IMG/VR virus record: IMGVR_UViG_3300032291_002399
Coordinates: 1-20,709 of that record
Length of the DNA: 20,709 nt
Source of the DNA: a virus
Reading direction: 5' to 3' (one strand)
Shown: piece by piece, positions 13,716 through 20,479 of the stretch
Layout of the letters: every line of letters starts with the position of its first letter
Numbering within the stretch: the first letter of the stretch is position 1
Notes under the pieces: generated by a model
The model's database searches: none
What the model was told of the DNA's origin: nothing
What the model saw: the letters and a program-made list of their open reading frames with translations, nothing else
Position numbers and translations under genes: made by a program

Positions 13716-13729
<14 letters not shown>
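13628..13729 (+). CDS. 33-residue basic peptide
   Basis: A short frame starts with ATG overlapping the previous stop (TGATG) and ends 14 bases inside the next gene. The peptide begins MCSTMRRAIVAEAKRRRLPV, then has the hydrophobic WAFLLLW. A second ATG at 13640 is possible. There is no good ribosome site, so it would depend on coupled translation. It fills the only gap between neighbours, which supports it being real. Function unknown. Confidence 0.4.
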
Positions 13730-14242
<513 letters not shown>

Positions 14243-14243
<1 letters not shown>

Positions 14244-15360: not shown

Positions 15361-15518
15361 TCGCCCGCATCCGTCGGTGGATGGACTCGTGGATGGTCGT
15401 CGATGTCGACGACGTCGTGATCGTGCCCATCGACAAGTGGCACGAGATCATTGGCGAGCGTGATCGCCTGCGTCTGGAAGTGGAGCGGCTGCGGTCGCTT
15501 GTGAGGGGTGGAGTGTGA
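15357..15518 (+). CDS. 53-residue protein with short coiled coil
   Basis: ATGA and GTGA overlaps link it to both neighbours. It starts MIARIRRWMDSWMVVDVDD and ends in a heptad-like helix (ERDRLRLEVERLRSLVRG). Function is unknown. The C-terminal helix suggests self-association or binding to another phage protein. Confidence 0.55.
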   Translation: MIARIRRWMDSWMVVDVDDVVIVPIDKWHEIIGERDRLRLEVERLRSLVRGGV

Positions 15519-16213
15519 GCCCCATCGATCTGCGCCTTGGGCGCTGGCAGGACGTGCTGGCCGACGTGACGATGTGCGATGCGGTGATCTGTGACCCGCC
15601 GTATTCGGCGAGGACAGACGAAGGCTACATGAGCCACGGGTCCCACGAAGTCGCCATGACGACGGACATCGGCTACTGTCCCATTGGGCAGGCTGACGCC
15701 GAAGCCCTCGCGGCGTCACTCGCCCCGCGCACGAAGCGGTGGGCGGTCATCTTCGGCGACCACATCAGCCGCGAGTGGCACGCCAATGCGTGGGAGGCTC
15801 AAGGCTGGTACGTCTTCGCTCCGGTCATCTGGGTGAAGCGGGGAGCCGCGCCAAGGTTCCGTGCCGATGGTCCCGCGTCGCAGGTCGACCACATCATGGT
15901 CGCACGCCCACGCAAGAACCTCGACGAACAAGACATGGGCAGCCGCCCCGGCTGGTATCTCGTCGACACACCACGAGCCGGCAACGACTATCACGGCGTC
16001 ACGGGCAGCAAGTGCATCAAGGGAATGCGCGCCATCGTCCGCGACTACAGCCGCCCCGGCGATCTCATCGTCGACCCGTTCTGCGGCAGCGGCACCACTG
16101 CCCTTGCCGCCGCGATGGAGGGTCGCAGGTGCATCACAAGCGAAGAGAAGCCCGAGCACTACGCCATCGCCAAGCGACGCCTCGACAGAGGCTATCAACC
16201 CGGTCTGATTTGA
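15515..16213 (+). CDS. DNA methyltransferase (amino-methyl type, DPPY motif)
   Basis: This 232-residue enzyme methylates adenine N6 or cytosine N4 using S-adenosylmethionine. The catalytic motif CDPPYS lies at 26-31, and the cofactor motif DPFCGSGTT near the C-terminus (187-195), so the motif order is that of the beta class. ITSEEKPEHYAIAKRRL completes the cofactor fold. No restriction enzyme gene is nearby, so it looks like an orphan methylase that protects phage DNA or controls expression. The start is GTG 15515, overlapping the previous stop (GTGA). The target sequence cannot be read from the protein. Confidence 0.9.
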   Translation: MSPIDLRLGRWQDVLADVTMCDAVICDPPYSARTDEGYMSHGSHEVAMTTDIGYCPIGQADAEALAASLAPRTKRWAVIFGDHISREWHANAWEAQGWYVFAPVIWVKRGAAPRFRADGPASQVDHIMVARPRKNLDEQDMGSRPGWYLVDTPRAGNDYHGVTGSKCIKGMRAIVRDYSRPGDLIVDPFCGSGTTALAAAMEGRRCITSEEKPEHYAIAKRRLDRGYQPGLI

Positions 16214-17033: not shown

Positions 17034-17227
17034 GCGAATTCACTCACTGTCACATGAACCGAGGTGCCCTTGAACGCCGCGCCGATGCACTCGCCCGTTC
17101 CGAGGCGGCGCTACGCGCCGACCTCGCCGAGTGCCGCGCCGAGAAGGAGCGACTCCGCAAGTTGAGTCTGCACCTGCAGGCCACGATTGACCGCATCCGT
17201 GTGGCTTGTGGGCCGGGCAGCCGTTAG
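17030..17227 (+). CDS. 65-residue coiled-coil protein, last gene of the rightward operon
   Basis: GGAGGAG lies just before the ATG, which overlaps the previous stop. Most of the chain is a charged heptad-like helix (RADALARSEAALRADLAECR, then AEKERLRKLSLHLQATIDRI). No family is recognised. Its TAG stop overlaps the TAA stop of the gene coming from the other strand, so there is no terminator between the two operons. Confidence 0.6.
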   Translation: MSEFTHCHMNRGALERRADALARSEAALRADLAECRAEKERLRKLSLHLQATIDRIRVACGPGSR

Positions 17228-17820
17228 CCCGTGACGACGAGCGGATACCCTCTGACCACGCGATAGCGCCTCGGTGACGCGCCCCACATGACCTCAGCCT
17301 GTAGGGTGCGTCGGTCGATTTGGACCACCTTCGCCGGTGCGCTGTCGGTCGCGTAAATCACGTCGTCGTCGTAGGCGAGCGCCATGATCCAGTGCTCGCC
17401 TACGTCGTCGCCGGTGTAGTCGACATGCAACCACGCGAACCCGTGCCGTGGTGAGATGCCGTGGCGGTCGATTGCGTCGCAGATGGCCACCGACAACTGC
17501 CGCGCCGACATGGCCCCTTTGGCGACCGTCCAGGCTGATTCAGTGTCAGGGCAGGAGAGCCCCGCAGACCGCGCCAAACGTGGCAGGACGGCGAGCGACG
17601 AGCCGGGTGCCCATACGGGCGGGACCGCCAGCGCGGCGCGGTCACAGACGGTCTGAGGCGTTGCGCCAGCGCGAATGCCCGAGGCCCGCTGTGCTTCGGC
17701 CAGACTGGTGACCGTGCAACCCCATTGCGCGACCGTCTTGCCGCCGTGGCCGTAGGGCGACGCGCCCCATCGGCGGTCGCCTTGCCACATGACGCGAGAC
17801 GGGAGGGGCCAGCCGTGCAT
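17224..17820 (-). CDS. C39-like cysteine peptidase, endolysin candidate
   Basis: This 198-residue protein fits the papain-like C39_2 family, which cleaves peptide bonds, in phages often of cell-wall peptides. The catalytic cysteine C35 lies in QWGCTVTSLAEAQ, preceded by the typical MWQGDRRWGASPYGHG. H143 lies in GEHWIMALAYDDD and D159 in IYATDSA, so the triad order Cys-His-Asp is kept. No signal peptide is seen, so export would need a holin. The ATG at 17820 overlaps the previous stop (TAATG); the frame extending to 18060 has the odd Arg-rich composition of a shadow. It is the last gene of the leftward exit operon. A structural protease role is the alternative. Confidence 0.75.
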   Translation of the reverse strand: MHGWPLPSRVMWQGDRRWGASPYGHGGKTVAQWGCTVTSLAEAQRASGIRAGATPQTVCDRAALAVPPVWAPGSSLAVLPRLARSAGLSCPDTESAWTVAKGAMSARQLSVAICDAIDRHGISPRHGFAWLHVDYTGDDVGEHWIMALAYDDDVIYATDSAPAKVVQIDRRTLQAEVMWGASPRRYRVVRGYPLVVTG

Positions 17821-17948
17821 TATCCGCTTACCGCCATGACGACGTCGGGCTCGCCATAGAATCGAGCCTGCTGCGCGGCCTGCTCTGGCGACATGGCCCA
17901 GAGGTAGCGGGTGCGGCCGTCGACGTAGTGGGCGACGTAGCGTCTCAC
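17820..17948 (-). CDS. 42-residue protein of unknown function
   Basis: The start is GTG 17948 with GAGGA 7 bases upstream, overlapping the previous stop (GTGA). It starts MRRYVAHYVDGRTRYLWA and ends with a helix and a short hydrophobic strand (PDVVMAVSG). No family is recognised. It lies directly before the peptidase gene. Confidence 0.5.
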   Translation of the reverse strand: MRRYVAHYVDGRTRYLWAMSPEQAAQQARFYGEPDVVMAVSG

Positions 17949-18142
17949 TGGCGTTCCTCGATTCGCTTTGCGGCGTCGTCGACGACGTCTGCCACGGCGT
18001 CGTTCTTCGGGTCGTCGTCGCTGCGGAGACGAGCGGCGTACAAGCGAAGAGCGAAGCCAATCACCTCGCGAACGACAGCGTAGATGCCGCCGCCAGCGAG
18101 CATGGCCTGCCACTCTGCGGCGACGTAGTCAGCGAGTTCCAT
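17945..18142 (-). CDS. 65-residue protein with amphipathic helix
   Basis: The ATG at 18142 has AGGGA about 9 bases upstream and lies 14 bases inside the end of the previous gene. The middle (GGGIYAVVREVIGFALRLYA) is partly hydrophobic but carries Arg and Glu, so it suits an amphipathic or weakly membrane-bound helix; the C-terminus is acidic (DDDPKNDAVADVVDDAAKRI). It may assist a holin, inferred from location only. Confidence 0.5.
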   Translation of the reverse strand: MELADYVAAEWQAMLAGGGIYAVVREVIGFALRLYAARLRSDDDPKNDAVADVVDDAAKRIEERQ

Positions 18143-18374
18143 TGTGGTTTCCCTTCAGCAAAAGTGCTTCAATGCGGTCGAATCGTTTGTCCATCTCAGC
18201 CTGCATCTTCTCGACGGAGGACGCCACCATCGCCAGCGCCTCCTTGCTGGCCTTGTCGCTGCGCAACTCCGATGTGATTTCCTCGAGACGACGCACACGA
18301 GCCTGTAGCGCCGCCCATGCCGCTGCGCCACCTGTCGCCGCTGAGAGAGCACCGATAGCAATTTGCTCAATCAC
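18129..18374 (-). CDS. Holin-like protein: N-terminal membrane helix plus coiled coil
   Basis: This 81-residue protein starts at GTG 18374 with a GAGGTG site upstream and overlaps the patatin stop (GTGA). It has one hydrophobic segment at residues 4-23 (QIAIGALSAATGGAAAWAAL) followed by a long charged coiled coil (RVRRLEEITSELRSDKASKE, then KMQAEMDKRFDRIEALLL). Size, one membrane span and place next to a peptidase suit a holin or holin accessory protein that forms or times membrane holes. There is no sequence motif that proves this. Confidence 0.6.
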   Translation of the reverse strand: MIEQIAIGALSAATGGAAAWAALQARVRRLEEITSELRSDKASKEALAMVASSVEKMQAEMDKRFDRIEALLLKGNHNGTR

Positions 18375-19219
18375 GCCACACCTCGAAACCAGCCGCCGCA
18401 GAGGCGCACGGTGTCGTAGCCGGTCGACCACTCACGCTCGACGCGCTGCTTGTTTTTCCTAAACGCCCAATCGTTGACGGCGTCGATGTCGACGTCGAGT
18501 CCGTCGGTGCGTCTCGACTTGCGTTGCGATGGAGCCCACAGGAGAGCACGGGGGATCGCAGAAAGAATCGCCGGAACGTCACCTGGACGGATGCGTCCGG
18601 CCGGGTCCATCGGTGCCTCACCGAGACGCACGGATACGCGAGGCTCAGGCTTATGGTCCCACACGCTATCGACGGTGTTGTCGGTGAGCCCGCCGTCGCC
18701 ATATAGACGAATGTCGGGAGACAACTCCGTGCCGATTGACGGGATGACCGCCGCAGGGACCACGCCGCACATGAACGACGACGACGCGATGACCGCCTCA
18801 CGCACCACAATGCGCGGTGTGCTGTGCTTCGATAGGTAGACGGGCCTCGCCCTGTCGAGGTCGGTCACGCACACCACAAGCCCGCTGGTTGCGTCTCCGA
18901 GTCGTGCGCCCTTGCCGACGTGCGTGTCGACGAGGTCGCCGATGATGTCGAGAGAAAACAGCCCCCCACGAGGGACGCTGGCCGGCGACAGCGCGAGATT
19001 CTGCCCGCTCTCCAGCACGTCGACGAGCATGGCGACGATGACCTCGTCGGGCAGACCAAACGCCTTGCATGCCGCGACGATGGAGCCCGCCGATGCTCCG
19101 CTCCACCCGAGCACTTTTGCGTGTGCGTCGACGGCAGCAGCAGCACCGGCGAGGTAGGTGATAGCGGGGCCACCTCCACTGATACTGGCGTACACTGGAC
19201 GACGTGACATGCCGGTCAC
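18371..19219 (-). CDS. Patatin-like phospholipase
   Basis: This 282-residue lipid acyl hydrolase is predicted to cleave membrane phospholipids. Patatin hallmarks are complete: the oxyanion-hole GGG (15-17) in SISGGGPAITYLAG, the nucleophile S43 in SGASAGS (G-x-S-x-G at 41-45), and the catalytic Asp in LYGDGGLTDN (D175, DGG). No signal peptide is seen. GTG 19219 overlaps the previous stop (GTGA); ATG 19210 is a close alternative. Its place among membrane-protein and peptidase genes suggests a part in cell exit, such as weakening the cell membrane or outer membrane. A role in defence, as with CBASS patatins, lacks a partner cyclase here. Confidence 0.85.
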   Translation of the reverse strand: MTGMSRRPVYASISGGGPAITYLAGAAAAVDAHAKVLGWSGASAGSIVAACKAFGLPDEVIVAMLVDVLESGQNLALSPASVPRGGLFSLDIIGDLVDTHVGKGARLGDATSGLVVCVTDLDRARPVYLSKHSTPRIVVREAVIASSSFMCGVVPAAVIPSIGTELSPDIRLYGDGGLTDNTVDSVWDHKPEPRVSVRLGEAPMDPAGRIRPGDVPAILSAIPRALLWAPSQRKSRRTDGLDVDIDAVNDWAFRKNKQRVEREWSTGYDTVRLCGGWFRGVA

Positions 19220-19476
19220 GGTATCACCGCGACAGGCGAACCGGAACCCCCACCAACGCCGCCGCTTGGTTTGCCCGGTGGCTTTCTAGTGCGGCGTTTT
19301 TTGCGCTTGTCGTCTTCCTCTTCGTCAGTCTCAGAATCGTCGACGTCATGCAGTGATGCCTGCTCGCTATTGAGAAGGCGCACGGCAATCACTTTGACGA
19401 TCCAGTCACCTACAGCCATGCCGAAGCCGACGACGACACACTCGACGAGAAGGATGAACAACTCAAGCATGTCCAT
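19216..19476 (-). CDS. 86-residue membrane protein, possible holin
   Basis: GGGAGG lies 8 bases before the ATG at 19476. Residues 3-34 are strongly hydrophobic (LELFILLVECVVVGFGMAVG, then WIVKVIAVRLL) and could make one long or two short spans. An acidic block follows (DDSETDEEEDD), then a basic Lys/Arg block and a Gly/Ser tail. The acidic-basic tail is unusual and might sense charge or bind a partner. A holin or anti-holin is a reasonable guess. It overlaps the patatin gene by 4 bases. Confidence 0.6.
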   Translation of the reverse strand: MDMLELFILLVECVVVGFGMAVGDWIVKVIAVRLLNSEQASLHDVDDSETDEEEDDKRKKRRTRKPPGKPSGGVGGGSGSPVAVIP

Positions 19477-19478
19477 GG

Positions 19479-20252
19479 TCACGCCCTCCCGTCGTAGCAG
19501 GAGCCATCCCGCCAGAAACGCTGCTCGGTGTAGACGACGATGTCGGCGGTGAATCGGCCAGACTTGCGCTCGATCCAAAACTCTCCGTGGCCTTGTGTCC
19601 ATCCTGTCGGCCCCTTGATGTATGAGCACCTGTCGACGGGAGCGAGGCACGGCAAGCCGAAAGCCCCGCGCACATGCTGCGAGCCTTCCGGGCCAGCGAC
19701 GGGCATCGTGTAGAGCTGTGCGCGGTGACAGTGCCCGATCACCAGGTTCGTGCCGTATCTCAGCAGATGCGACTTGCAGTAGGCGTCGCCGGCAAACACG
19801 CCATGGGTAAAGCCGAGGTGCCCGATCTTGTGGACCTCACCGTATGGCGTCGACGTGATTGCGTGGTCGACGAGACGGAGCGCGGATGCCCACGTTTCCA
19901 TTCCTGCCAGTGCCGGCGCTGTCTTCGCGACGAAGCGCCGATAGCGGTCTTCGTGATTGCCCTCGACGTAGTGGATGGGCTTCTTGCCCATGATCTTGCG
20001 CAGTCGCGACAACTCGTCTCGCACCTGCTCAAGCTCGGCGAGAAACGCCTGTCGCGGTTCTCCGTCGTCGTGCAGCGACACCGCAGCGAAGTCTGCGAAA
20101 TCGCCGTTGATCACGAGCCGGTCGGCCTTGACGTCATCGAGACGTGCAAGGAACGCCCGCCACGCAAACGGGTCATGGAATGGCACATGGACGTCGCTGC
20201 ACACGATGACGTGCTCGACGTCGGCCCGCATCTTTCCCTTGCGCCGGGTCAC
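19479..20252 (-). CDS. Calcineurin-like metallophosphoesterase
   Basis: This 257-residue, two-metal phosphoesterase carries motifs SDVHVPFHD (D20, H22), VINGDFADF (D51), YVEGNHEDR (N99, H100), FTHG (H150) and VIGHCHRA (H174, H176), in the normal order, so an active enzyme is expected. The substrate is unknown; phage members of the family are mostly uncharacterised, with nucleic acid ends, nucleotides or cyclic nucleotides possible. GTG 20252 overlaps the previous stop (GTGA); ATG 20231 with AAGGG upstream gives 250 residues and is also possible. It is the second gene of the exit operon, two bases ahead of the membrane-protein gene. Confidence 0.88.
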   Translation of the reverse strand: MTRRKGKMRADVEHVIVCSDVHVPFHDPFAWRAFLARLDDVKADRLVINGDFADFAAVSLHDDGEPRQAFLAELEQVRDELSRLRKIMGKKPIHYVEGNHEDRYRRFVAKTAPALAGMETWASALRLVDHAITSTPYGEVHKIGHLGFTHGVFAGDAYCKSHLLRYGTNLVIGHCHRAQLYTMPVAGPEGSQHVRGAFGLPCLAPVDRCSYIKGPTGWTQGHGEFWIERKSGRFTADIVVYTEQRFWRDGSCYDGRA

Positions 20253-20479
20253 CGCTCCACTTCCGTGGTGTGCGTCGGCTCGACGTCGGGGTAGTGCCAA
20301 TGAGGATACTCGCCGACGGATCGGTGATTCATCGAGCGCGTCGCGATGTTCATGCCTCCGAAGTAGTCCGCAGAGATGCGACCACCGCCGAGATGACGAC
20401 GCACGAATCCGGGGCAAGCGTAGGTGTCGGAAATGACGACGACGACGGCGTCACCGATAACGGGTGTGCGGATCTTCAT
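20249..20479 (-). CDS. 76-residue protein, unknown, first gene of the exit operon
   Basis: AGGAGG lies 4-5 bases before the ATG at 20479. The N-terminus is hydrophobic strand-like (MKIRTPVIGDAVVVVISDTY); the rest is rich in Gly, His and Tyr (RSVGEYPHWHYPD). One cysteine occurs at about residue 22. No family is recognised. A perfect hairpin stands immediately upstream of its ribosome site, and it overlaps the phosphoesterase gene by 4 bases. Confidence 0.55.
   Translation of the reverse strand: MKIRTPVIGDAVVVVISDTYACPGFVRRHLGGGRISADYFGGMNIATRSMNHRSVGEYPHWHYPDVEPTHTTEVER

Follow-up and report, generated by a model that had tools for sequence, protein, structure and literature searches.

A patatin-like phospholipase gene as a candidate accessory of the lysis module in a clade of uncultured tailed phages

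Described systems and the present locus

A 'patatin-based lytic cassette' was proposed in 2022 for the Wolbachia phage WO (PMC9203015), and a lipolytic enzyme acting in the third step of lysis has a tested precedent in LysB of the mycobacteriophages (PMC5707550). The locus analysed here lies at the right end of a virus record of 20,709 bases (the window, meaning the whole of this stretch) and resembles that of phage WO in that a patatin is encoded beside a small protein with an N-terminal transmembrane (TM) segment and a C-terminal coiled coil, near late genes, and in that a role in lysis is proposed. The two loci differ, however, in several respects: phage WO has no recognised endolysin, whereas the cassette of the window contains a C39-like peptidase; the host of WO has no detected peptidoglycan; the WO cassette includes an ankyrin protein; and the phages are unrelated. 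The window and WO patatins gave no significant alignment (E 0.018, single comparison), and the WO patatin has relatives in phage records only among Wolbachia phages and in two large uncultured phages. LysB is likewise a lipolytic enzyme encoded in a lysis cassette, but it is a mycolyl-arabinogalactan esterase and not a patatin, and its loss results in a measured lysis defect. The sequence-only reading had considered a lipase acting at lysis to be a design not usually described, which is only half right given the WO proposal and the LysB precedent: the patatin exit cassette is a variant of a kind already proposed for phage WO.

Two further groups of proteins are relevant for comparison. The patatin fold and the Ser-Asp dyad are shared with CapV, CapE and PlpD, although identity to these is 12-17% and the window patatin has no secretion domain and no recognised cyclase or activator; an activator is required by related patatins, CapV among them. 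As for the Rz/Rz1 and unimolecular spanins, the small coiled-coil protein of the window (TMcc) is laid out like the inner-membrane subunit, but no outer-membrane lipoprotein partner was found for it.

The patatin gene and its neighbours

The right end of the record carries, on the minus strand, a series of closely packed and mostly overlapping genes. In reading direction these encode a 76-aa protein of unassigned function (20249..20479), a calcineurin-like metallophosphoesterase of 257 aa (phrog_221; 19479..20252) which is the upstream neighbour, TM1 (86 aa; 19216..19476), with a single N-terminal TM segment and a highly charged tail, and the patatin-like phospholipase of 282 aa (18371..19219). 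These are followed by TMcc (81 aa; 18129..18374), with its GTG start, single N-terminal TM segment and coiled coil, by TM3 (65 aa; 17945..18142), with one TM segment and a charged tail, occupying a holin-like slot, by a small protein of 42 aa (17820..17948) with a dN of 0 between close relatives, and by a C39-like cysteine peptidase of 198 aa (17224..17820; C35/H143/D159), a putative endolysin. The patatin gene overlaps those of two one-TM proteins by 4 nt each, as had been noted from the sequence alone: TM1 on one side (GTGA, 19216-19219) and TMcc on the other (GTGA, 18371-18374), the GTG start of TMcc lying inside the patatin stop codon. Together with the absence of promoter-like sites, these overlaps suggest that the genes from patatin to peptidase form an operon; what is seen of the operon claimed earlier is one overlapping chain ending in a Cys-His-Asp peptidase.

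The metallophosphoesterase gene is missing from one patatin-bearing relative (G003, L004), and in most relatives TM1 is paired with the metallophosphoesterase. This pair (window 19216-20252; L087:16335-17422) stands 5' of the cassette in the clade of the window and 3' of the peptidase in a sister clade. Elsewhere in the window, positions 15515-16213 encode an N6/N4 DNA methyltransferase (PF01555, E 3.3e-19), in the place of which the close relative G002 has a different, 173-aa gene, and positions 13716-14243 encode a protein containing a long run rich in alanine and aspartate (AADAADAANAAADAADAAYAANAADAAADVAV), which probably arose by expansion of a codon-triplet repeat.

The patatin reading frame extends from a GTG start at 19219 to a TGA stop ending at 18371, exactly where and in the frame in which it had been placed. 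Residues 12-182 match PF01734 with 47.6 bits (cut-off 27.7; E 2.9e-12), and a profile search of the whole record gave 48 bits and E 1.9e-14 for the same family. All the catalytic motifs previously reported were located by script, namely the oxyanion GGG at 15-17, the nucleophile S43 in GASAG and D175 in DGGL. All three are kept in the 16 full-length copies examined (16/16; one truncated locus, which has no N-terminus, is outside this count), and their conservation spans 61-70% identity in the wider clade. The AlphaFold2 model (pLDDT 75.7, pTM 0.82) retrieves CapV, CapE and PlpD among the top Foldseek matches with E values of about 1e-8, which identifies a patatin fold. With fold and dyad intact, the protein appears to be an active acyl hydrolase, as judged from sequence and model. 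Nine close relatives are syntenic and 95-99% identical, and comparison with the window over 849 bases gives dN/dS values of 0.06-0.11, similar to those of the neighbouring genes; the patatin is under purifying selection.

No signal peptide or other export signal is evident in the protein. It belongs to no PHROG family, 50,697 phage records gave no match to it, plasmids gave none either, and a pattern scan of 84,980 prokaryote genomes returned no relative of either the patatin or the capsid protein. The patatin is thus so far known only from uncultured phages, and a bacterial donor, also looked for in that pattern scan, was not found.

Distribution and gene order in the phage family

The window belongs to a clade of uncultured tailed phages with genomes of about 37 kb; two close relatives, G002 and G004, have end repeats of 127 bases, which would be expected if they are circular assemblies of about 37.3 kb. 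The conserved capsid protein was traced to 39 IMG/VR loci, and whole-genome amino-acid identity among 15 genomes resolves two clades. Clade 1 comprises G002 (the clade of the window), G012, G024, G051 and G053, with mutual identities mostly of 55-81% (52% over five genes for G024-G051), and G011 was counted in the window's own clade by its patatin and peptidase. Clade 2, its sister, comprises G016, G025, G032, G033, G034, G036, G041 and G049 (mutual identity 55-80%), and identity between the clades is 42-53%.

The same place was inspected in the relatives, and the patatin is by no means absent from all of them: it was found 5' of TMcc in every clade 1 lineage seen. None of the eight near-full-length genomes of the sister clade carries it (0/8), five of which (G025, G032, G034, G036 and G041) have end repeats and are therefore probably complete; G023, about equidistant from both clades, is also without patatin. 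In the sister clade the TMcc-TM3-peptidase cassette is present without the phospholipase.

The capsid-protein tree had suggested a sporadic accessory gene ('moron') with three to four gains. This was rejected: whole-genome identity unites all patatin-bearing lineages except G038, so that the capsid gene is to be regarded as a mosaic piece. The capsid protein of L069 (G024) resembles that of the window clade at 94%, while the whole genome is closer to G053, a mismatch which indicates recombination and that the capsid tree misleads in this phage family. Gene identities also suggested that G024 and G053 had exchanged the patatin-to-peptidase genes as a block; this was withdrawn, since the two share 83.5% DNA identity upstream over 5.3 kb and 72% identity overall.

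The position of the gene is constant on one side and variable on the other. Within clade 1 the 3' neighbour is always TMcc, followed throughout the patatin clade by a holin-like gene and then the peptidase, whereas the 5' neighbour is of four kinds: TM1, an exported protein of 116 aa or one of 204 aa, or a gene of 167 aa from the virion region. Wherever the junction was checked (11/11, G038 included), the following gene starts inside the patatin stop codon (ATGA, GTGA or TTGA). The patatin is retained across two unrelated types of holin-like gene and across peptidase subtypes that diverge down to 35-42% identity. From the constant slot and the patatin-less sister cassettes it follows that the patatin is bound to the exit genes, which themselves do not need it.

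Another proposal is that the enzyme is packaged in the virion and acts on membrane lipids when the DNA enters. Genes of the virion are encoded just upstream and on the same strand, and in G053 the patatin directly follows the 167-aa gene, but what stays constant beside the patatin is TMcc and the holin slot rather than a structural gene, and the patatin is unfused to any tail protein; we consider such a role very improbable. About equally remote, or slightly more so, is a metabolic function, in which host phospholipids would be recycled for energy or fatty acids: patatin-like phospholipases have been listed as putative auxiliary metabolic genes of lake viruses (PMC9469726), but the present gene has a late position within the exit block, and no other lipid gene was recognised among the window genes scanned.

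A second patatin occurs in G038, which is nearest to the sister clade (58% to G016). It is divergent, being 29% identical to that of the window, matches PF01734 with 73.7 bits and occupies the same slot, the gene after it encoding a TM protein with a weak resemblance to TM3. In this genome the patatin and the TM3-like protein (L088:10543-12313) replace the TMcc-TM3-peptidase-phosphoesterase-TM1 stretch in its entirety. The G038 record, which is incomplete at 24 kb, yielded no peptidase, and the patatin may there even replace the endolysin. Further patatins of this type were not found in viral contigs.

An alternative view is that the patatin is a late accessory gene which damages or remodels membranes, blocking superinfecting phages or freeing lipids, at a spot beside the lysis genes that is merely permissive. 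Burkholderia prophage patatins have been termed morons (PMC2920897), the CBASS effectors CapV and CapE rank at the top of the structural matches, profiles of CBASS lipases recognise the patatin of G038 (E 1.1e-8 to 1.5e-8), and the sister clade lives without the gene. The window patatin, however, matched no PADLOC or CBASS profile, and its neighbours include no recognised cyclase or sensor gene, so that an identity as a defence protein was discarded; moreover, its presence in every lineage of the clade and its fixed 3' neighbour are not moron-like. We therefore regard this view as unlikely, although it deserves consideration.

The assignment of the TMcc-TM3-peptidase cassette to lysis is the weaker link of the argument, and we make it as a prediction. 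The TMcc counterpart of G012 weakly matches a PHROG 'holin' family (E 1.3e-4), and TMcc has a weak Rz-like PHROG match (E 0.13). Between the same neighbours, the holin slot is occupied either by TM3 or, in other relatives, by an unrelated small membrane protein, TM81 (L073:15839-16084, compared with window 17945-18142 for TM3); non-homologous exchange is usual for holins. In the peptidase, C35, H143 and D159 are invariant in 12 diverse relatives, and a C39/papain-like relationship emerges weakly both by sequence, in one relative (PF13529, E 0.017), and by fold, where it is the best match (best E 1.4e-2; model pLDDT 64); close kin were not found in phage records. The peptidase is probably the endolysin, and the genes scanned offered no better recognisable candidate for lysis. 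Among the late genes of G012 there is also an exported LamG-like protein (L073:12532-14301; G012 26214-27983) with an SGNH/GDSL-type segment (GDSLTAG...GDGVHPN) noticed by eye. Other relatives encode related exported proteins whose N-termini resemble signal peptides; none was seen in the window.

The spanin question and the proposed role at phage exit

The sequence-only reading had recognised no spanin and had suggested that the patatin could stand in for one. The first observation is borne out by a lipobox scan of both strands of six genomes, with and without patatin, which gave no credible lipoprotein signal for an o- or u-spanin: G004, the near-twin of G002, does not share the single plus-strand match seen there. 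The second does not follow, since the patatin-less G016 and G023 also show no recognisable spanin in lipobox and cassette scans. The absence of spanins thus does not track the presence of the patatin, and replacement cannot be inferred.

This weakens the proposal that the patatin is a dedicated third-step protein which, like LysB in mycobacteria, destroys a diderm host's outer membrane. The missing lipobox spanin, the LysB precedent and the best helicase relatives, which belong to phages of Gram-negative hosts and point only loosely to such hosts here, are in its favour, but the protein has no signal peptide and TMcc, given its layout, could itself be an inner-membrane spanin subunit; on balance we find it rather improbable. 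The host may be monoderm, or TMcc may have an unrecognised partner, or another device may be in use. Only marginally more credit can be given to the broadest version, according to which the phospholipase would be a dedicated lysis protein, recruited twice in the family, whose third-step destruction of lipids would make spanins unnecessary and represent a general exit route from diderm hosts.

What stands of the exit-operon proposal is the fixed position 5' of the TMcc, holin-like and peptidase genes, with the start/stop overlap recurring each time. Since a conserved gene overlaps probable cell-bursting genes, the patatin probably helps to break the host membrane at exit, and synteny, selection and the second patatin recruitment, in G038, argue for membership of the lysis module. 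We propose that the patatin is an accessory phospholipase of this module in a clade of about 37-kb uncultured tailed phages, a reading based on gene content and order to which we assign an even chance. Having no export signal, the enzyme would accumulate in the cytoplasm and, at the end of infection, would cut acyl chains from host phospholipids; this would weaken the cytoplasmic membrane, and any outer membrane too once the holin opens, resulting in faster or more complete lysis. Late expression, the phospholipid substrate and the effect on lysis are all presumed in this scheme. Against it stand the occurrence of the same cassette without patatin in the sister clade and the holin and endolysin assignments, which are themselves weak by sequence. 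Sites beside lysis genes also collect late accessory genes, and a cytosolic phospholipase with no known brake might harm the cell ahead of finished assembly; both points likewise count against a role in lysis.

The patatin cassette bears on how phages without recognisable spanins leave their hosts. The sister clade provides a natural control without patatin, to be compared with a clade in which the patatin always accompanies holin-like and endolysin-like genes. Taken together, the patatin clade and phage WO suggest that patatins have been recruited for exit more than once.
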